A stretch of 64,000 bases of DNA, taken from positions 124,001-188,000 of the forward strand of contig CAJXNP010000005.1 of assembly GCA_913057175.1 (NCBI GenBank). The letters are read 5' to 3'. Shown one piece after another: positions 33,366 to 43,165 of the stretch. A program made the position numbers and the translations under genes. The stretch comes from an uncultured Cytophagales bacterium. GTDB taxonomy: Bacteria > Bacteroidota > Bacteroidia > Cytophagales > Cyclobacteriaceae. Below the pieces are notes generated by a model. It did not search any database. It was not told the DNA's origin and was given only the letters and a program-made list of their open reading frames with translations. The stretch's first letter is position 1; the number at the start of each line of letters is the position of its first letter.

Positions 33366-34196
33366 ATGAAGAAAAAAGTAAAAGTAGGAAACCTGACTCT
33401 GTCAGATGAGCAGTTTTTCCTGATTTCAGGGCCTTGTGTAATCGAGGAAGAAAAGATCATGATGCAGGCCGCTGAGAAACTTAAAAGCGTATCGGAGAAA
33501 TATCAATTGCCTGTTGTCTACAAATCTTCTTTCATGAAGGATAACCGAAGCTCCGTGGATTACTACATGGGACCCGGCTTGGAAGAAGGGCTGAAAATGC
33601 TGGAAAAGATCAAAAAGGATTTTGGTTTCCCAATCTTGTCAGATGTTCATTATCCTGAGCAGGTTGAAGCTGCAGCCGAGGTACTGGATATCATTCAAAT
33701 CCCCGCATACTTATGCATGCAAACCACCCTGGTAGTGGCTGCGGCAAAAGCTGGTAAATGTGTTAATTTGAAGCACGGCCAGTTTCTGGCACCGGAAAAT
33801 ATGATTAAACCCGTTCAAAAAATTGAATCTCAGGGCAATTACGATATTCTTTTAACAGAGAGAGGCTTTACTTTCGGATACAATGATCTCGTTGTTGATC
33901 CAAGAAGTTTTCATCACATGAATGAAACAGGTTATCCTGTAATTTTTGATATCACACATTCTATCAGAAAATATGGCATTCCTAGTGCTGACCCGAGTGG
34001 AGGGGCCAGGCATTACATTCCTACTCTTTCGAGGTCGGGAGTAGCAGCAGGTGTAGATGGAATATTTGTGGAGATCCACCCAGACCCTTCTAAAGCATTG
34101 TGCGATGCCGCCAGCCAGCTTCCGATGGATCAGTTGGAAGACTTTTTAGAACCCCTCATAGAAATTCACAACATCGAAAAGAAATACAGAAATTAA
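33366..34196 (+). CDS. kdsA: 3-deoxy-D-manno-octulosonate 8-phosphate synthase (KdsA), metal-dependent class
   Basis: A 276-residue enzyme condensing arabinose 5-phosphate with phosphoenolpyruvate to Kdo-8-phosphate, for lipopolysaccharide or capsule. Characteristic blocks: FLISGPCVIE, KSSFMKDNRSS, IIQIPAYLCMQTTLVVAAAKAG, LKHGQFLAPENM, TERGFTFGYNDLVVD, FDITHS, SGGARHY and VEIHPDPSKALCDAASQLP. The Cys in GPCVIE, the His in THS, the Glu in EIHP and the Asp in LCDAA match the four metal ligands of the Aquifex-type class II enzymes. It is first in a three-gene operon with an unusual transaldolase-CBS fusion (2-base gap) and a KdsC-like phosphatase. Confidence 0.97.
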   Translation: MKKKVKVGNLTLSDEQFFLISGPCVIEEEKIMMQAAEKLKSVSEKYQLPVVYKSSFMKDNRSSVDYYMGPGLEEGLKMLEKIKKDFGFPILSDVHYPEQVEAAAEVLDIIQIPAYLCMQTTLVVAAAKAGKCVNLKHGQFLAPENMIKPVQKIESQGNYDILLTERGFTFGYNDLVVDPRSFHHMNETGYPVIFDITHSIRKYGIPSADPSGGARHYIPTLSRSGVAAGVDGIFVEIHPDPSKALCDAASQLPMDQLEDFLEPLIEIHNIEKKYRN

Positions 34197-34197
34197 C

Positions 34198-35205
34198 ATG
34201 GAATTATATCTAGATTCAGCAAATCTGAAAGAAATTGAAGAAGCATTTCAGCTTGGTTTTCTCACAGGCCTTACGACCACTCCGACATTCATGCGACGGG
34301 ATGGTATCACGGATATTGATAAAGCGATTTTAAAACTGGCTGAAATTGTTCCGGTCCTTCAGGTTGAGGCACTCGGTCAGAAAGCCGAGGAAATCACCAA
34401 AGAAGTTGACCGACTTTTGGCTTTAGGCCTGGATAAGAAAAAAACAGTATTTAAAATTCCGATTTCCCTGGAGGGTGCAAAAGCGTGTAAGCAACTCGTT
34501 GACAAAGGAATATTGGTCAACCTTCATCTGGTTTATACCATCCAACAAGCCTATATCGGACTAGCCGCTGGGGCAACGTATGTCTGCCCGCTTGTAGGAA
34601 GACTACAGGATCAGGGGCATGATGCATTGGGGCTGGTCGAGCAGTGTGTGGAGGCAGTGGAAAAGTACGGATACGATTCAAAGATCATGTTTTCTTCTGT
34701 TCGTCATGCAGAGCACGTTAGGAATGCATTGGATATTGGAGTGCATACGATTACCGTTCCATGGAAAGTCCTTCAACAATTAACCCAAAATCACTTCACC
34801 GATTTAGGTACACAGCAATTCTTCCAGGATACCAAATTGATGACGGTAAAAGTAAAAGATGTTTTACGCAGGGAGGCATCCATTATCAATATGAATAAAA
34901 CCATTACCGATGCGCTGGTTGTCATGACCAAATCCAAACTTGGAGCAGCTACAATTGTTGATGATAATAATTCGATCAAAGGAGTGTTTACAGATGGAGA
35001 CTTGCGGCGATTATTGGAATCGGAAGGGGACCACATCATGGATAAAAAATTATCTGAACTGGATCTGCATTACCCTGTAACTGTTGAGGCGGACGCCCTT
35101 CTTTACGATGCTTCGACCATTTTCAAAGAGAAGAAATTTGACAATATTGTTGTGGTGGATAATAATCAGCCCGTTGGCATACTTGATATTCAGGATTTGA
35201 TTTAA
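34198..35205 (+). CDS. Transaldolase/fructose-6-phosphate aldolase-like domain fused to a KdsD-type CBS pair
   Basis: A 335-residue two-part protein. Residues 1-220 align with the small transaldolase/FSA family: MELYLDSANLKEIEEA (Asp6), GLTTTPT, the Schiff-base lysine K86 in VFKIPISLEG, YVCPLVGRLQDQG with Arg135, FSSVRHAEHV and TVPWKVLQQL. Residues about 225-335 are two CBS domains whose linker KLGAATIVDDNNSIKGVFTDGDLRRLL is nearly identical in style to the CBS pair of arabinose-5-phosphate isomerase (KdsD/KpsF), but there is no SIS isomerase domain. Odd active-site changes: the conserved TTNP reads TTTP (Asn to Thr28), and Leu132 stands where FSA has its Tyr. It sits between kdsA and a kdsC-like gene, so a role in making or gating arabinose 5-phosphate is inferred, not shown. 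Confidence 0.9.
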   Translation: MELYLDSANLKEIEEAFQLGFLTGLTTTPTFMRRDGITDIDKAILKLAEIVPVLQVEALGQKAEEITKEVDRLLALGLDKKKTVFKIPISLEGAKACKQLVDKGILVNLHLVYTIQQAYIGLAAGATYVCPLVGRLQDQGHDALGLVEQCVEAVEKYGYDSKIMFSSVRHAEHVRNALDIGVHTITVPWKVLQQLTQNHFTDLGTQQFFQDTKLMTVKVKDVLRREASIINMNKTITDALVVMTKSKLGAATIVDDNNSIKGVFTDGDLRRLLESEGDHIMDKKLSELDLHYPVTVEADALLYDASTIFKEKKFDNIVVVDNNQPVGILDIQDLI

Positions 35206-35207
35206 TT

Positions 35208-35888
35208 ATGCTTGATCTGGAAAAAATCTTTATTGGCAGAGGGGGAGAGTTCTTATCTCCCCCTTCTGTTTTAAAAAACAAACTGGAAAAGATCAAGGCC
35301 ATCATATTTGATTGGGATGGTGTGTTTAATGATGGGGTGAAAGATTCCAATTTTTCATCCAGTTTTGCTGAGGGAGATGCCATGGGTACCAACCTTATGC
35401 GGTTTGGGTTTTACCTGAAAAAAGGTTTTGTGCCCAATACTTCCATTTTTACCGGAGCACTGAATGATATTTCAAAATACCTCGCTACACGGGAGCACTT
35501 TGATTTTCTCATTTATAAATGCATCAATAAAGGAGCTGCATTTGAAGACTATTTGGTGAAGAATAATCTAAAACCTGAAGAGGTCGCTTTTTGTTTTGAT
35601 GATGTGCTGGATCTGGCAATGGCAAAAAGGTGTGGCTTGCGTTTTTACATCCGTACGGCTGGGCGACCAATGTTTGACGACTATGTTATCCGACACAATT
35701 TGTTTGATTACAAGACCGGCCGGACCGGTTCGGAAGGTGGGGTGCGAGAAGTTGCTGAATTGGTTCTCGGACTATTCGACAATTATGATGAAGTGGTACA
35801 TCATCGCCTGGAATTTTCCGATACCTACAGAAAATATTGGGAAACCAGAAATCAGAGGATGACCGAGATAGTCGAATGGAAGAACTGA
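35208..35888 (+). CDS. KdsC-like HAD-family phosphatase
   Basis: A 226-residue protein with HAD motif I as FDWDGVFNDG (D-x-D nucleophile pair) at about residue 32, a KdsC-style central region (TGALNDISKYLATREHFDFLIYKCINKGAAFEDYL), motif IV as FCFDDVLDLAMAKRCGL and the KdsC-type tail GRTGSEGGVREVAELVL. KdsC removes phosphate from Kdo-8-phosphate. It is longer than typical KdsC (about 180 residues) because of ~28 extra N-terminal and ~25 extra C-terminal residues. It begins 2 bases after the transaldolase-CBS gene and converges with the next gene so closely that the two stop codons abut (35886-35891). Confidence 0.82.
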   Translation: MLDLEKIFIGRGGEFLSPPSVLKNKLEKIKAIIFDWDGVFNDGVKDSNFSSSFAEGDAMGTNLMRFGFYLKKGFVPNTSIFTGALNDISKYLATREHFDFLIYKCINKGAAFEDYLVKNNLKPEEVAFCFDDVLDLAMAKRCGLRFYIRTAGRPMFDDYVIRHNLFDYKTGRTGSEGGVREVAELVLGLFDNYDEVVHHRLEFSDTYRKYWETRNQRMTEIVEWKN

Positions 35889-36885: not shown

Positions 36886-36983
36886 GGTGCAATTGAGAAG
36901 AAATGCACCAGTTTTCAGAGGAGAACATTGTAAAGTTTTAAATGACATATGAAAACATACTCATATTTATTAGTAATCATATA

Positions 36984-39221
36984 ATGAAATCAACCAGAAG
37001 AGACTTTATCAAGATTGCGGCTGTTGGAGCGGGAGGGCTGGCGACTTCCGGAGGATTATTCAGTTGGGCTCGAGCCAATTTCTTTGAGGAGGTACCCAAT
37101 GCTCCTGGTATGACCAGAACTCCAACTTATTGTGAAATATGTTTCTGGAAATGTGCAGGATGGGTCTATAAAAATGAAAAGGGAGAAATTCAGAAAATCA
37201 TTGGAAATGACGAAGATCCTCATTGCAATGGCCGATTATGTCCACGAGGTACGGGAGGGGTAGGGATGTATTACGATGAAGATCGTCTTAAAACCCCGCT
37301 GGTTCGGCGTACGGTGAATGGGAAACAGGTATTTGAGCCAGCCAGCTGGGATGAAGCTTTGGATGTGGTAGCTCAAAATCTCAAAAAAGTCGCCAAAGAA
37401 CACGGTCCGGAATGTGTTGCTCTTTTCACCCATGGTTCCGGAGGTAAATTTTTCGGAGATCTTTTGAAAGCATTTGGATCGGAAAATATAACCGCCCCAT
37501 CATTTGCCCAATGCAGAGGCCCGAGGGAAGTCGCTTTTTTATCAACATTTGGAGAGATCATTGCCTCCCCTGAAAGAACTGACATCAGGGATACGAGATG
37601 CCTGGTACTGATAGGTTCTCACATCGGTGAAAATATGCATAATGGTCAGGTGCAGGAAATGTCCGATGCAATTGATAATGGAGCAACGATTATAACAGTT
37701 GATCCCAGGTATTCCACTGCAGCAAGTAAATCAAAATATTGGCTTCCCATAAAGCCTTCTACTGATATAGCTCTTCTATTGGCCTGGATCAATGTGATCA
37801 TCAATGAGGAATGGTATGATAAAAAGTATGTTGAAAAATATTGCTATGGATTGGAGGAATTGAAAAACCATGTTAAAACCTTCACACCTGAATGGGCTTA
37901 TGGTATCACCACTATTCGCCCCGATGTCATTTATGAAACAGCTCGCGAAATGGCGAATGCTTCTCCCGCGGTGATCATACATCCTGGCAGACATGTAACC
38001 TGGTATGGGGATGATACCCAGCGATTGAGGGCTGTGGCTATTTTAAATGCTTTACTGGGCTCATGGGGCAGAAGGGGAGGTTTTTATTCACCAGAGAAGA
38101 AAGATCTTCCTTCCTATCCCCATCCGGAGTTTCCAAAGCCCAAAAGAACGTGGCGGGATGCGCATCCAGGAAAATACAATCTGGCACTGGAAGTCGTGTC
38201 CAATGACATATGCGATTCCACCATTCCATCGCCTGACCGGGCATGTAATTTTAAAGCGTGGATCGTAAATGGCACCAACCTGATCTTTACGCTTCCCGAT
38301 CAGAAAAAGACCCTGGAAGCTATTCAAAGTCTTGAATTCATGGTAGTTATCGATACGATGCCGATGGAAATTACAGGGTACGCCGATGTGGTCCTTCCGG
38401 AATGCACCTACCTGGAACGATATGATTATTGCCGTACAGATCAGCACAGAGAACCCAACATAGCCTTGCGTATGCCTGCTGCCGAACCTAAATATGACAG
38501 CAAGCCAGCTTGGTGGATAGCCAAAAAACTGGCTTCTAAACTGGACCTGGATGAATATTTCAAATGGAACGATATCGAGGAACTACTTGACTGGCAATTG
38601 AAAAAAGTAGGAACCTCACTGGAGGAAATGAAGAAAGTTGGAGTTAAGAAATTCCCACGGGAATATGATGATCTGTATTTCTACGACGATCAGGAAATTC
38701 AGTTCAATACCAATACAGGTAAAATTGAATTGTACTCAACTGACCTGGCAGCTGAGGGATTTGTTCCCATGCCGGTCTACACTCCACATGAAGAGCCTCA
38801 AACAGGATTCTACCGATTGAATTACGGCAGAAGCCCGGTCCATACTTTCAGTCGCACGGCAAACAACCCAAATCTGACAGATCTCATGGACGAAAACGTA
38901 TTGTGGGTCAATCCAAAAGTGGCGAAAGAATGGAGTCTGAAAGCTGGTCAGAAGATATGGTTAGAAAACCAGGATGGTGTTTTGTCAACATTTCCCATCA
39001 AGGTTCGCATCACAGAGAGGATCCGATTTGACTCGGTTTACATGGTCCATGGATTCGGACATGCCGAAAAACGATTAACCCGATCCTATGGAAAGGGAGT
39101 GAGCGATACAGAATTAATCACAAATGTGAAGACCGATCCCATCATGGGGGGAACAGGGATGAGGAGCAATTTTGTCACATTCCATGTAGAAGATCCACAT
39201 AGAAAGGAGGTTGAGTCATGA
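36984..39221 (+). CDS. psrA: Polysulfide/thiosulfate reductase-type molybdopterin catalytic subunit (PsrA/PhsA-like)
   Basis: A protein of about 745 residues starting at the ATG at 36984 because MKSTRRDFIKIAA is a textbook Tat signal; an ORF start 42 bases upstream lacks this. A 4Fe-4S site reads C50-x2-C53-x3-C57-x28-C86 followed by PRG. The putative molybdenum ligand is C177 in SFAQCRGPREV. Long blocks such as DARNPR-like VDPRYSTAASKSKYWLPIKPSTD and VVIDTMPMEITGYADVVLPECTYLERYD match the molybdopterin family's Psr/Phs branch. It reduces polysulfide, thiosulfate or tetrathionate outside the cytoplasmic membrane; the exact substrate is not decidable. It overlaps psrB by four bases. Confidence 0.85.
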   Translation: MKSTRRDFIKIAAVGAGGLATSGGLFSWARANFFEEVPNAPGMTRTPTYCEICFWKCAGWVYKNEKGEIQKIIGNDEDPHCNGRLCPRGTGGVGMYYDEDRLKTPLVRRTVNGKQVFEPASWDEALDVVAQNLKKVAKEHGPECVALFTHGSGGKFFGDLLKAFGSENITAPSFAQCRGPREVAFLSTFGEIIASPERTDIRDTRCLVLIGSHIGENMHNGQVQEMSDAIDNGATIITVDPRYSTAASKSKYWLPIKPSTDIALLLAWINVIINEEWYDKKYVEKYCYGLEELKNHVKTFTPEWAYGITTIRPDVIYETAREMANASPAVIIHPGRHVTWYGDDTQRLRAVAILNALLGSWGRRGGFYSPEKKDLPSYPHPEFPKPKRTWRDAHPGKYNLALEVVSNDICDSTIPSPDRACNFKAWIVNGTNLIFTLPDQKKTLEAIQSLEFMVVIDTMPMEITGYADVVLPECTYLERYDYCRTDQHREPNIALRMPAAEPKYDSKPAWWIAKKLASKLDLDEYFKWNDIEELLDWQLKKVGTSLEEMKKVGVKKFPREYDDLYFYDDQEIQFNTNTGKIELYSTDLAAEGFVPMPVYTPHEEPQTGFYRLNYGRSPVHTFSRTANNPNLTDLMDENVLWVNPKVAKEWSLKAGQKIWLENQDGVLSTFPIKVRITERIRFDSVYMVHGFGHAEKRLTRSYGKGVSDTELITNVKTDPIMGGTGMRSNFVTFHVEDPHRKEVES

Positions 39222-39751
39222 GATATGCGATGGCAGTTGATACGAAAAAATGTGTAGGGTGTAGCGATTGCGTAGTGGCTTGCCAGACGGAGAACAATGT
39301 TCCTATTGGTTATTGCAGGGACTGGATAGTCGAAGTAGTGGATGGCACCTACCCACAATTGGAATTAGAAATCAGGTCCGAAAGATGCAATCATTGTGCG
39401 AATTCTCCATGTGTACGATGTTGCCCGACAGGTGCAAGTCATTACAGTGATGGAGGTATTGTGCTGGTTACTCATGACGAGTGCATTGGTTGCGGAGCTT
39501 GTATTGCTTCCTGTCCTTACGATGCCCGATATCCGCATCCGGATGGATATGTTGACAAATGTACTTTCTGCATTCATCGGGTAAGGGAGGGACAACAACC
39601 AGCTTGTGTGGAAGTCTGCCCAACCAAATGCCTCTATTTTGGCGATCTGGAAGATCCGGAAAGCGATGTTTCGAAAGTGCTGAAAAAACGAAAATACAAA
39701 ACCCTGATCCCCGAAGCGGGAACAGACCCTCAGTTATATTTTCTCATTTGA
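39218..39751 (+). CDS. psrB: 4Fe-4S ferredoxin-type electron transfer subunit (PsrB/PhsB-like)
   Basis: A 177-residue protein with four cysteine clusters in the order expected for this family: CVGCSDCVVAC, CNHCANSPCVRCCP, CIGCGACIASCP and CTFCIHRVREGQQPACVEVCP. It carries electrons from the membrane quinol oxidase (PsrC) to the molybdopterin subunit. It starts inside the stop of psrA (ATGA overlap) and is followed 14 bases later by psrC. Confidence 0.93.
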   Translation: MRYAMAVDTKKCVGCSDCVVACQTENNVPIGYCRDWIVEVVDGTYPQLELEIRSERCNHCANSPCVRCCPTGASHYSDGGIVLVTHDECIGCGACIASCPYDARYPHPDGYVDKCTFCIHRVREGQQPACVEVCPTKCLYFGDLEDPESDVSKVLKKRKYKTLIPEAGTDPQLYFLI

Positions 39752-39765
39752 TAAAGTTTTGAATT

Positions 39766-40707
39766 ATGAAAGAGGAACTAATTGTTAGCGGAAGATTGAA
39801 TGAATACATTGATCCAAATTTACATATCTGGGGATGGGAAATACCTTTATATTTATTTTTAGGTGGCTTGGCTGCGGGTATTTTGTTTTTTGCGGCACTA
39901 TTTTATTTGCAGGGTAAAGAAAATGAATATAAGGCAGCTGTAAAATGGGCTCCTTTGCTTACCCCCATATTTTTGATTCTTGGATTGACTGCATTATTTC
40001 TGGACTTGCATCATAAACCGTATTTCTGGCAATTATATACCAATATCAAATTTCAATCTCCTATGTCGTGGGGAGCCTGGACATTGATGGTGGTGACTCC
40101 TTTGTCGATTATCTGGAGTGCAACTTATATTCGTGAGGTATTTCCCAAATGGGATTGGAAATATCGATGGCTGTATCAGCTTGAAGAGTTTTTCCAAAGT
40201 AAAAGAACTGAAATGGCCTGGATACTGGTGGTGTTTTCGGTCATTCTGGGTATTTACACAGGTATTCTGTTAAGCGCTTTTAACGCACGTCCTCTTTGGA
40301 ATACCTCTATTTTAGGGCCACTATTCCTGGCATCCGGTTTGTCTGCCGGTGCTGCACTAATCATGATGATGAGCAAGAATAAATTGGAAAGAAAACTTTT
40401 CAGCAAACTGGATCTTATCCTGATTACTCTCGAATTGTTTTTTATTGTTCATTTATTCATGGGCTTTTTGGCAAGCACCCAGGTACAAATTGAAGCTGCA
40501 GAATTGTTTCTTGGAGGCCCTTATACATTACCATTCTGGATCTTTGTGGTCTTTATCGGGATGATCATACCCGCATTCCTGGAATGGTGGGAATTGAAAG
40601 GGCACCATATTCCTGCTTATCTGCCGGCAATGCTTATCCTGTTTGGAAACATCATGTTGAGGTTTTTGATCACGTATGCGGGACAGGCCAGCAGATATTT
40701 GTATTAA
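39766..40707 (+). CDS. psrC: NrfD/PsrC-family membrane subunit
   Basis: A 313-residue polytopic protein with about eight helices and the NrfD-type pattern: GWEIPLYLFLGGLAAGILFFAAL near the start, HHKPYFWQLYTNIKFQSPMSWGAW in the middle and LEWWELKGHHIPAYLPAMLILFGNIMLRFLITYAGQ at the end. It oxidises quinol in the inner membrane and passes electrons to PsrB. A 162-base gap containing a strong hairpin separates it from the next genes, yet all point the same way. Confidence 0.93.
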   Translation: MKEELIVSGRLNEYIDPNLHIWGWEIPLYLFLGGLAAGILFFAALFYLQGKENEYKAAVKWAPLLTPIFLILGLTALFLDLHHKPYFWQLYTNIKFQSPMSWGAWTLMVVTPLSIIWSATYIREVFPKWDWKYRWLYQLEEFFQSKRTEMAWILVVFSVILGIYTGILLSAFNARPLWNTSILGPLFLASGLSAGAALIMMMSKNKLERKLFSKLDLILITLELFFIVHLFMGFLASTQVQIEAAELFLGGPYTLPFWIFVVFIGMIIPAFLEWWELKGHHIPAYLPAMLILFGNIMLRFLITYAGQASRYLY

Positions 40708-40784
40708 TAGGAATGAGAAGTAGAATTAGATTGTTCAATATATAATAGTGATTAGTTATAGGTTGGTTAATGGTTGATTAATTA

Positions 40785-40835
40785 TTTGAGATGGAAATCC
40801 CGGTGTGGTGAATAACCATATCGGGAAATCTCAAA
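40785..40835 (+). other. Structured hairpin between psrC and the YeeE/YedE genes
   Basis: TTTGAGAT (40785-40792) pairs with ATCTCAAA (40828-40835), and TCCCG (40798-40802) pairs with CGGGA (40822-40826). The result is a two-storey stem with an internal bulge and a 19-nt loop that can itself form GGT/ACC pairs. It lacks a T-run for simple termination on the plus strand. It may be an mRNA processing/stability element or attenuator that sets the ratio of reductase to transporter. Confidence 0.5.
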
Positions 40836-40869
40836 GACTAGACCTTTAAATAAAAAATTCGATAAGAAA

Positions 40870-41385
40870 ATGATCAAAAAGAGAAAATACATGAATCCGT
40901 ACCTGGCAGGGGTTCTTTTGGGATTAGTTCTCCTGGCTTCCTTTTACCTGACAGGAAGAGGACTTGGTGCCAGTGGTGCGATGAAAAGTGTGGTTGTTTC
41001 GGGAGTAGAAAAAATTGCTCCGTCACACGTCAGTAATTCCGGGTTTTATTCAAAATATGTTTCTGAGGAAGCCAGCCCACTCAAAACCTGGTTGGTATTG
41101 GAAGTTTTTGGAGTATTGATTGGAGGATTTATTTCCGGAGCGATATCAGGCAGATTGGGTTTGAAAGTAGAGCGATCACCCAAAATAACGAACAGACGAA
41201 GATTGATCTTTGCGGCGATTGGTGGAGCTCTGTTTGGTTTTGGTTCACAACTAGGCAGGGGCTGTACCAGCGGAGCGGCATTGAGCGGTATGGCGGTACT
41301 TTCCGTCGCTGGATTTGTGACAATGATGGCCATTTTTGGGACAGCTTTTGCCCTTGCATATTTCTTTAGAAAAAACTGGATTTAA
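40870..41385 (+). CDS. YeeE/YedE-family sulfur transporter, N-terminal half
   Basis: A 171-residue membrane protein with about four helices. GGALFGFGSQLGRGCTSGAALSGMAVLSVAGF is the repeat unit of the YeeE/YedE (DUF395) family with its conserved Cys. E. coli YeeE homologues (TsuA) import thiosulfate. The full-length transporter has two such halves; in this operon they are separate genes (this one and 41396-41998). Sulfur compound uptake beside a polysulfide reductase makes functional sense. Confidence 0.85.
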   Translation: MIKKRKYMNPYLAGVLLGLVLLASFYLTGRGLGASGAMKSVVVSGVEKIAPSHVSNSGFYSKYVSEEASPLKTWLVLEVFGVLIGGFISGAISGRLGLKVERSPKITNRRRLIFAAIGGALFGFGSQLGRGCTSGAALSGMAVLSVAGFVTMMAIFGTAFALAYFFRKNWI

Positions 41386-41395
41386 AATCAAAGAT

Positions 41396-41998
41396 ATGGG
41401 ACCCATTATACCGGTATTCGGAATTTCAGAAGAGCTTAATTTATTGATCGCATTTATCATAGGTTTAGGATTTGGATTTGCTTTGGAGCAAGCCGGATTT
41501 TCCAGTAGTAGAAAGCTGGCAGGTATGTTTTATGGTTATGATATCACAGTTTTAAAGGTGTTTTTTACAGCAGCTATCACTGCGATGCTGGGCTTGATTT
41601 TTCTCAATTATCTGGAAATGATTGATATGGGCATTATATATGTCAATCAATACTACATTCAATCGGCCATAGTTGGCGGTGTAATTATGGGGGCAGGATT
41701 CATCGTTGGGGGTTTTTGCCCGGGAACCAGTGTTTGTGCCGCGGCAATAGGTAAAATTGATGCCATGGTTTTTATCGGAGGAAGTTTGTTAGGAATTATT
41801 TTTTTTGGAGAGACCTATTCTTGGTGGGAAGAATTATACAATAAAAATTTCATAGGCTCGCCAAAGCTTTCCAACACCTTAAATTTAAAAGATGGTGTGC
41901 TGGCTCTGCTGGTGGTTGTCATGGCGGTGATCATGTTTTGGTTGGGCGAAAAAGCCGAAAAACGATTTAATAGGGATGATATTATAAAAGAAATTTAA
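41396..41998 (+). CDS. YeeE/YedE-family sulfur transporter, C-terminal half
   Basis: About 200 residues with about five helices. The hallmark GFALEQAGFSSSRKLAGMFYGYD is near the start, and GAGFIVGGFCPGTSVCAAAIGKIDAMVF carries the second conserved cysteine pair. The chosen ATG at 41396 (MGPIIPVFG) lies 10 bases after the stop of the first half; an upstream TTG start would overlap it. Together the two proteins should assemble into one thiosulfate/sulfur-compound transporter. Confidence 0.85.
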   Translation: MGPIIPVFGISEELNLLIAFIIGLGFGFALEQAGFSSSRKLAGMFYGYDITVLKVFFTAAITAMLGLIFLNYLEMIDMGIIYVNQYYIQSAIVGGVIMGAGFIVGGFCPGTSVCAAAIGKIDAMVFIGGSLLGIIFFGETYSWWEELYNKNFIGSPKLSNTLNLKDGVLALLVVVMAVIMFWLGEKAEKRFNRDDIIKEI

Positions 41999-42008
41999 AT
42001 AGAGAAAA

Positions 42009-42623
42009 ATGAAATCAAGGGTATTATTGACAATTGTTATCGTTTCACTTTCCGCCATCGCTGCGATTCTTCCTCAAAAAAAGAATTCATCTGTACAGCT
42101 GAGTGCTGATGAAGTTTTGCAGGGAATTAACCTTGGAACGTATAAAATTTCATCCGATCAATTAACCGAGGTGATTATCAATCAGGATCCTTCCTATATG
42201 TTGATTGATTTGCGATCGGCAAGTGAATTTGAAGACTATCATTTTCCCGGGGCCATCAACATTCCATTTGATAGTTTATTCACAGAAAACTGGATCATGT
42301 ACATCGATCAGGATTTGAGGAATAACATTTTTTATTCCAACGGTGGTTCATTGGCGGGTCAGGCACTGGTTCTAACTCGTCAGAGAGGTTTCAAAAACAA
42401 CTTTGTATTAGAGGGCGGATTGAATGAATATTTCGATAAAGTTGTTAATGCTGAAGAACCACCAGGAATTGCTGACGCTCAGGAGCACAAAATTTATCAA
42501 AGGCGAAAAGCAGCACAGCAATATTTTAAAGGAGGCGAGGCATTACCTGAAAATGATACAGAAATTATGATCAAGCCCATTCCAGTCAGGAAGAAAAAAA
42601 TGGTTCAGGGAGGTTGTAGTTAA
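42009..42623 (+). CDS. Membrane-anchored rhodanese-like protein lacking the catalytic Cys; lone Cys at the C terminus
   Basis: A 204-residue protein with an N-terminal signal anchor and a rhodanese domain (MLIDLRSASEFEDYHFPGAINIPFD, then VLEGGLNEYFD). Where the rhodanese persulfide-carrying Cys should follow the central strand, the sequence reads FYSNGGSLAGQ: Ser110 instead of Cys. The only Cys of the protein is C203, next to the end, in a Lys-rich tail ending QGGCS, a GGC-type tail that could carry sulfur or a metal. Co-transcribed with the YeeE/YedE genes and a second rhodanese paralogue. Confidence 0.85.
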   Translation: MKSRVLLTIVIVSLSAIAAILPQKKNSSVQLSADEVLQGINLGTYKISSDQLTEVIINQDPSYMLIDLRSASEFEDYHFPGAINIPFDSLFTENWIMYIDQDLRNNIFYSNGGSLAGQALVLTRQRGFKNNFVLEGGLNEYFDKVVNAEEPPGIADAQEHKIYQRRKAAQQYFKGGEALPENDTEIMIKPIPVRKKKMVQGGCS

Positions 42624-42634
42624 ACATTGGAAAA

Positions 42635-43165
42635 ATGAAAGAAAAGAAATTTCTCATCATCATAGGCTCAATTGTTTTTGCAATAGCAGTAGGTTTGGTC
42701 GGACTTTCCTTTAAACTAAAAAGCAGAAACCAGATTAAACTCAGCGCTGTTGAGGTGCATCAAATGATTACCGGGAAAGAACATTATTTTGATCCTAACC
42801 AGTTATCCGAAATTATCGATCAGAGCGATTCTGATGTGCTTCTCATTGATATCCGAACCCCGGATCAATTTATTAACTATCACATCGTCGGCGCGATCAA
42901 CATTCCATATCAAAGAATCTTAGATAAAGAATACGAAGAGATTCTCGATGATGATCGGACTAAAATCCTTTATTCAGCCGATGAAGTCAAAAGCGCTGAG
43001 GTTTGGACCATTCTCCGACAATTAGGTTACGAAAATATCTTCGTTCTTCAGGGAGGGTTGAATTTTTGGATGTCGAAAATCGAAAAGAAGGATATATTCG
43101 GACCGGTCACTCTTGATGATGAAAAAGCCCGGTTTGATTTCAAAAAAGAAATCAATCCCCAATAA
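42635..43165 (+). CDS. Second rhodanese-like protein, entirely without cysteine
   Basis: A 176-residue paralogue of the preceding protein: signal anchor (residues 6-26), the shared LSAVEVHQMITG...DPNQLSEIIDQ region and the rhodanese core (VLLIDIRTPDQFINYHIVGAINIPY, FVLQGGLNFW). The catalytic position is YSADEVKSAE (Ser114), and the protein has no cysteine at all, so it cannot be a sulfurtransferase by the usual mechanism. It probably acts as a binding or scaffold domain, or pairs with the C-terminal Cys of its neighbour. It arose by tandem duplication. Confidence 0.85.
   Translation: MKEKKFLIIIGSIVFAIAVGLVGLSFKLKSRNQIKLSAVEVHQMITGKEHYFDPNQLSEIIDQSDSDVLLIDIRTPDQFINYHIVGAINIPYQRILDKEYEEILDDDRTKILYSADEVKSAEVWTILRQLGYENIFVLQGGLNFWMSKIEKKDIFGPVTLDDEKARFDFKKEINPQ

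Follow-up and report, generated by a model that had tools for sequence, protein, structure and literature searches.

A transaldolase–CBS fusion that appears to take the place of KdsD in Kdo operons of Bacteroidota

Introduction

Kdo is an essential sugar of lipopolysaccharide and an antibacterial target, and the step that leads into its synthesis is considered to be the formation of arabinose 5-phosphate (A5P) by KdsD. In a stretch of 64,000 nucleotides from an uncultured Cytophagales bacterium (hereafter the window), a gene lying between kdsA and a kdsC-like gene encodes a transaldolase-type barrel joined to a CBS pair of the KdsD type. What does such a protein do in a Kdo operon? The initial annotation of this locus, made from the letters of the DNA, suggested that the fusion replaces KdsD, either by aldol chemistry or by making another sugar phosphate for a variant of Kdo, with feedback through the CBS pair. 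We examined this proposal in the window's genome, in genomes of the order and the phylum, and in homologous loci. The reading that we favour, with a probability of about 0.6, is that the fusion would be the A5P source, by aldol addition, of a Kdo pathway that lost KdsD.

Domain structure and neighbourhood of the fusion

The operon has the following features:

33366–34196, + strand: kdsA, KDNRS subtype of 3-deoxy-8-phosphooctulonate synthase, 276 aa (TIGR01362)
34198–35205, + strand: whole TAL–CBS fusion gene, 335 aa, proposed A5P-forming enzyme
34198–34842, + strand: transaldolase/FSA-type barrel, about residues 1–215 of the fusion (PF00923, TIGR00875, Foldseek)
34453–34455, + strand: codon of the Schiff-base lysine K86 of the fusion
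34843–35202, + strand: KdsD-type CBS pair, about residues 216–335 of the fusion (TIGR00393, structural matches)
35208–35888, + strand: kdsC', divergent HAD phosphatase in the place of KdsC, 226 aa (PRK09484, PDB relatives)

The barrel belongs to Pfam TAL_FSA (PF00923; residues 3–216, E 1.6e-33, 116.7 bits against a gathering score of 27). It scored 160 bits with TIGR00875, the fructose-6-phosphate aldolase (FSA) equivalog, below the curated cut-off of 245.95, and its top structural relatives in Foldseek were TalC-type transaldolases (TM (target) about 0.9). Pfam CBS matched two stretches of the fusion (E 1e-15). The kpsF profile TIGR00393 was matched at positions 153–267 of 268 only (E 1.8e-21, 76.9 bits against a cut-off of 203.7), on the CBS side, and the KdsD model PRK10892 also matched this part (3e-17). 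An AlphaFold model of the full chain reached a mean pLDDT of 86.8 with a pTM of 0.59, so the domains are sound but their mutual arrangement is not. A frame or assembly artefact was rejected, since 55 genomes of the order have the fusion.

Most of what the initial annotation had read in this region held up. The SIS domain is absent from the fusion, the CBS pair is of the KdsD type and carries FTDGDLRR, and the barrel residues Lys86, Asp6 and Arg135 are present and kept in all 106 alignable fusion homologues (the alignment has 107 rows, one being a short fragment gapped at D6, K86 and R135). Two bases (35206–35207) separate the fusion from the kdsC-like gene, as had been noted; the gap on the kdsA side, also given as two bases, is a single base (34197).

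The fusion and KdsD are almost mutually exclusive across genomes

The initial annotation had called for a genome-wide search for a SIS–CBS kdsD. We found no SIS protein of the KdsD kind in the window's genome (98.7% complete) with PF01380 and TIGR00393. The four PF01380 matches comprised two in one 621-aa frame, which we read as GlmS-like, one GmhA and one MurQ, and the sole TIGR00393 match at E ≤ 1e-15 was the fusion's own CBS pair; a KdsD hidden elsewhere in this genome was thus set aside. KdsB is encoded on a separate contig (C2:228311–229012; 223.6 bits against a cut-off of 155.2), and a Kdo-type pathway is therefore expected to run in this bacterium.

One further frame of this genome, 385 aa long and with a canonical KdsC domain, was considered as a Kdo phosphatase and rejected: it is fused to a cytidylyltransferase-like part, scores above the cut-off for KDN-9-phosphatase and has a NeuB-like gene adjoining it (L309:4071–6107, on contig C11). 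The genome probably makes a nonulosonic acid too, from this locus. Positions 36942–43165 of the window probably form a redox cluster for sulfur compounds, in which genes for a molybdopterin oxidoreductase with Fe-S and membrane subunits precede Sulf_transp and two rhodanese-like genes (assigned by Pfam for two genes and by eye for the others).

We searched each of 148 genomes of the order for the fusion, KdsD and KdsA. The fusion was found in 55 (in 53 of them the match covers 312 residues or more; in G082 the alignment runs over residues 1–270, and in G136 the fusion is divided between two contigs), KdsD above its cut-off in 71, and KdsA in 121 at E ≤ 1e-50 (119 above the cut-off). Among the 121 genomes with KdsA, 51 had the fusion only, 67 had KdsD only, two had both and one had neither, a mutual exclusion with a Fisher p of 1.6e-30 when genomes are treated as independent. 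The 27 genomes without KdsA comprised 23 with neither source, two with the fusion (G082 and G110, 75% and 72% complete) and two with KdsD (G011 and G107). These last four count against the fusion as an A5P source, as does the KdsA-bearing genome with neither, G133, a fragmented draft with 6% contamination. Both states occur inside 7 of the 19 families of the order, so the exclusion does not go back to a single old split.

The same picture extends to a phylum sample of 296 genomes (292 of them at least 90% complete), in which five had the fusion and none of these had KdsD; KdsD was present in 212 (E ≤ 1e-40) and KdsA in 218, and three KdsA-bearing genomes, read by eye, had neither source (G170, G338 and G409). 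With just five fusions, this sample adds breadth, not numbers.

Three small genomes of family f8 (G007, G026 and G042; 1.5–1.6 Mb, 87–93% complete) have KdsB and KdsC above cut-off, but in none of them did a match for KdsA, KdsD or the fusion pass the thresholds applied; they appear to hold a partial CMP-ulosonate pathway.

Mutual exclusion, swaps within families and operon context strongly support the idea, already put forward in the initial annotation, that the fusion replaces KdsD. Judged from gene content and gene order, it appears to take KdsD's place in genomes and operons.

The barrel keeps the catalytic residues and changes the donor site

We compared the 106 fusions with 25 TalC-like proteins of the order. 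D6, E57, K86, N108, R135 and S167 are kept (D6, E57, K86, R135 and S167 each in 106/106 fusions), whereas N28T, T110H, F132L and A166S are found in all 106 and S130C in 105. We take positions 28, 110, 130, 132 and 166 to lie around the donor site of the FSA/TalC family, and their change means that the donor or the reaction course of the fusion is probably altered. The fusion therefore shares with FSA/TalC (TIGR00875, PF00923) the barrel fold and the kept residues, but differs in its added CBS pair, its donor-site residues and its score below the equivalog cut-off.

The chemistry of the family covers both the synthesis and the cleavage of A5P. E. coli FSA forms A5P from glycolaldehyde and glyceraldehyde 3-phosphate in a measured reaction (PMC6298115, PMC9947464, PMC6900487); FsaA cleaves A5P with a Km of 0.65 mM and a kcat of 3.6 per s (PMC6900487), FsaA/B are reported to favour glycolaldehyde as donor and glyceraldehyde 3-phosphate as acceptor (PMC6298115), and FsaA has been used in vivo (PMC9947464). 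Synthetic A5P-aldolase pathways that use FsaA and KdsD of E. coli share this aldolase step, but they are engineered for C2 assimilation or production and not for Kdo (PMC9947464, PMC6298115, PMC6900487).

By analogy, K86 of the fusion would form a Schiff base with glycolaldehyde as a two-carbon donor, which would then be added to glyceraldehyde 3-phosphate with the stereochemistry of FSA to yield A5P (fructose 6-phosphate minus C1). Two observations speak against this aldol reading. No glycolaldehyde-making gene common to the fusion operons was seen, whether from gene clusters or by eye, and the remodelled donor site means that donor and reaction may differ.

The same observations fit a fusion acting as a C2 epimerase, converting ribose 5-phosphate to A5P by retro-aldol/aldol chemistry or by C2 deprotonation of a C1 Schiff base, with closure on the opposite face. 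Such a reaction would require no free glycolaldehyde, and H110, present in every alignable fusion, would be an extra acid–base residue. To our knowledge no member of the FSA/transaldolase family is an epimerase, and the argument is made from residues only. A transaldolase fold can nevertheless make both epimers, since TalB F178Y gives ribose 5-phosphate as a by-product and FsaA does not (PMC9947464). We favour aldol synthesis of A5P and consider epimerisation of ribose 5-phosphate the nearest rival, if an unlikely one.

A distinct KdsA and phosphatase accompany the fusion

The KdsA of the window is a clear KDO8P synthase (TIGR01362, 340 bits against a cut-off of 314) of a subtype marked by D59, M118, H137, R201 and Y203. 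It has KDNRS in place of the KANRS motif and M118 in place of the arginine for the A5P phosphate, as do all 52 sequences of the subtype. The 52 KDNRS sequences separate fully from 31 standard ones, all of which have A in place of the D of KDNRS; the KDNR motif itself defined the two groups, so that position 59 separates by construction, while the remaining positions played no part in the grouping. They include M118, R201 and Y203, where 31/31 standard sequences have R, Q and P, and C246 for S. The standard set was drawn from the pool of the 67 KdsD-only genomes, with one sequence from G069, which has both states. A tree of 34 of the 83 sequences gave two groups on either side of one dividing branch with a support of 100/100.

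KDNRS KdsA was present in 48/48 fusion genomes examined; 53 carry KdsA, and the motif count leaves out G034, G077, G102, G118 and G145. Outside fusion genomes it was found in four, namely G029, G059 and G120, all with KdsD, and G133 with neither source. In the phylum sample, a KDNRS-type model scored 530–544 bits in six genomes (the five with fusions and G029), all others reaching 328 or less. The two genomes of the order with both fusion and KdsD, G069 and G096, have two KdsA each, one per type, and two phosphatase types. Both gene sets are present in G069, each KdsA adjoining its own partner. In G096, KdsD and the standard KdsA share a contig, separated by about 5.6 kb; with 7% contamination, this genome could be a mixture.

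M118 aligns with R106 of Aquifex aeolicus KdsA, which we take to be the residue that binds the A5P phosphate, so this arginine is lost in the subtype. The ligands of the metal-dependent enzyme (C24, H198, E236 and D247) are invariant in an 18-row alignment; their A. aeolicus counterparts are presumably C11, H185, E222 and D233.

The phosphatase differs as well. The kdsC' product falls far below the cut-offs of PRK09484 (48.7 bits against 208) and TIGR01670 (37 bits against 106.95), and its nearest PDB chains are YrbI/KdsC-type phosphatases. A standalone canonical KdsC was found in 5 of 53 fusion-only genomes of the order against 61 of 69 KdsD-only genomes. KdsB shows no such change: at equal thresholds, it has 0 group-specific positions (20 sequences against 20), compared with 23 in KdsA (52 against 31). 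A KdsB signature tracking the fusion was thus rejected, and the free sugar is probably unchanged. The KdsB tree was poorly resolved and swap counts were not drawn from it. We conclude that the fusion, the KDNRS KdsA and their phosphatase appear to travel together as a module, with no matching change in KdsB. The KdsA subtype, the exchanged phosphatase and the Kdo8N genes of relatives go beyond the initial annotation.

Natural mixtures point to A5P as the shared intermediate

An enzyme suite this distinct could serve another product. The loss of the R106 equivalent and the change from KANRS to KDNRS would also fit an acceptor other than A5P, which counts against the aldolase reading. Together with the replaced phosphatase and the changed donor site of the fusion, they suggest a third explanation, in which the fusion makes another aldose phosphate, and the KDNRS KdsA and kdsC' form an ulosonic acid other than Kdo, or a Kdo precursor with different phosphorylation.

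Parts of the two modules are combined in a few lineages. G029 (a one-contig genome) and G059, of genus g33, have KDNRS KdsA, kdsC', KdnA/B and a standard KdsD with no fusion, and the TalC copies detected in them at E ≤ 1e-10 carry the ordinary TTNP motif. In genus g25, G020 and G079 have a kdsC' 37–38% identical to that of the window together with a KANRT KdsA and KdsD. KDNRS KdsA also occurs together with KdsD in G120, a draft genome (94% complete, 4% contaminated). Such genomes should fail if the intermediates of the modules differed, and the intermediates therefore look interchangeable. The mixtures are few, and this weakens the A5P reading, yet they indicate that the fusion most likely supplies A5P and that kdsC' takes Kdo8P.

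These mixtures, the unchanged KdsB and the presence of Kdo8N-type KdnA/KdnB in some of the same operons make a different sugar phosphate improbable, more so than the epimerase. Of the two routes offered in the initial annotation, the one through a sugar phosphate for a Kdo variant has accordingly become less likely, on the strength of the mixtures and KdsB.

Operon context and Kdo8N genes

The initial annotation had also proposed surveying homologues for a kdsA neighbourhood. We examined 80 named loci out of at least 549 relatives; 76/80 were Bacteroidota by title, and the other four included Azovibrio, Saccharibacteria and Proteobacteria. Within these 80, kdsA was within reach in 42 and was of the KDNRS type in 42/42, a kdsC' relative was found in 57, and kdsB, kdnB and kdnA had 17, 13 and 13 matches. 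One kdnA match (L181, 27% identity) is probably another aminotransferase.

A WaaA-like gene was found in five of the 80 loci (L214, L221, L223, L229 and L241), and that of L229 was confirmed by Pfam Glycos_transf_N. Four of the 80 (L214, L221, L229 and L241) have the full waaA–kdnA–kdnB–kdsA–fusion–kdsC'–kdsB set, some with intervening ORFs; no kdsC' match was found in L223. Leaving the fusion's own role aside, A5P formation is the one Kdo/Kdo8N step for which the gene sets of these four loci have no enzyme.

The KdnA relatives scored 431 bits against 5k8b (8-amino-3,8-dideoxy-manno-octulosonate transaminase), the next named enzymes reaching 179. The KdnB relatives scored 429 bits against 5k8c (Kdo 8-oxidase), with the next named enzyme at 91 except for 3rf7 (Fe-ADH) at 422. 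We take 5k8b and 5k8c to be the KdnA and KdnB of the Shewanella Kdo8N pathway, acting on Kdo. Among the 55 fusion genomes of the order, kdnA was present in 39 and kdnB in 40. Many fusion genomes and some operons thus share KdnA- and KdnB-like genes with the Shewanella pathway, but the window's genome differs, as neither had a match there at E ≤ 1e-60. KdnA, KdsB and KdnB relatives are also clustered in G119, of the same family as the window's genome (C4:138378–141374; KdnA/B at 47–48% identity), which has KdsD and a KANRT KdsA, so that Kdo8N-like genes occur there without the fusion module.

For L221–L223, L228, L229 and L241 we considered whether a further enzyme lies between kdsA and the fusion, and rejected this because the intervening ORFs differ; by eye, they encode PIN/antitoxin-like or small helical proteins. 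PIN-domain-like ORFs lie at L222:9312–9982, L223:9309–9976 and L228:9565–9981, with a small antitoxin-like partner in L222 and L223 (by eye), and small helical ORFs, which by eye may be of the four-helix-bundle S23 type, at L221:9504–9866 and L229:9513–9884.

It would suit the fold and the Schiff-base lysine if the fusion were an ordinary transaldolase with a CBS pair, in the operon by chance, with A5P coming from another isomerase, but this is highly improbable given a separate TalC-like gene (N at position 28) in at least 15 fusion genomes, the tie between the fusion and KdsD absence, and the uniform KdsA type beside it.

The CBS pair resembles that of A5P isomerases

Compared with solved chains by sequence, the CBS pair was closest to 4o9k, 3fna and 3k2v, all CBS pairs of A5P isomerases, and when folds were compared with Foldseek the top six rows were likewise all of this kind. 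On re-alignment, 4o9k led (Z 18.2, rmsd 1.8, 121 aligned), tied with 3k2v at 17.5; we take 4o9k to have been solved with CMP-Kdo. In a comparison of 90 fusion and 33 KdsD rows, which were pre-selected by motif (90/107 fusions and 33/34 KdsD kept) so that motif counts are biased, 13 of 28 KdsD-conserved columns are kept in fusions; of the remainder, seven differ within the CBS pair, mostly by similar residues, and eight precede it and are absent from the fusion. Without pre-selection, all 106 fusions have F264, D266, G267 and R270, D268 is present in 90 and R271 in 97, which leaves a minority of fusions with an altered FTDGDLRR. Nine of the fusions (L195, L201, L203, L216, L231, L232, L234, L242 and L244) have FTDG(S/G)LRK instead, perhaps reflecting another or a lost CBS ligand. 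The fusion thus shares with KdsD/KpsF/GutQ (TIGR00393) a CBS pair with FTDGDLRR and, apparently, the slot in the Kdo pathway, but has no SIS catalytic domain and differs in fold and chemistry. By analogy with these isomerases, feedback on the fusion by CMP-Kdo or CMP-Kdo8N is plausible.

Discussion

We propose that A5P made by the fusion would be condensed with PEP to Kdo8P by the subtype KdsA, that kdsC' would dephosphorylate Kdo8P, and that KdsB would then make CMP-Kdo. In about 40 of the 55 fusion genomes of the order, the window's genome not among them, KdnB/KdnA-type enzymes would lead on to 8-amino-Kdo. The KdsD-type CBS pair would sense the CMP-activated end product and throttle the fusion.

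More broadly, and at slightly less than even odds, Bacteroidota may have a phylum-wide second route to Kdo, formed by an A5P synthase with a transaldolase fold and CBS regulation, a co-adapted KdsA and their own phosphatase, a module that would have swapped repeatedly with KdsD–KdsA–KdsC. The barrel would then perhaps catalyse a new type of reaction, either as a ribose 5-phosphate C2 epimerase working by aldol chemistry or as an aldolase specialised for glycolaldehyde. Its fold, the CBS pair and the A5P-aldolase reaction in the laboratory are already known. We found no description of the substitution of KdsD by the fusion, the module swap or the KdsA subtype in the titles and abstract openings of the open-licence papers searched.

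If our reading is right, species of Bacteroidota, probably in the hundreds (at least 549 related loci), make A5P by a non-orthologous aldolase-type enzyme, and models of the Kdo pathway in such bacteria either lack the first step or have it wrong. The FSA-type A5P chemistry of synthetic biology would gain a natural role, and a testable function would be given to a common gene whose sequence by itself says aldolase only. Inhibitors of KdsD would miss the bacteria that carry the fusion.
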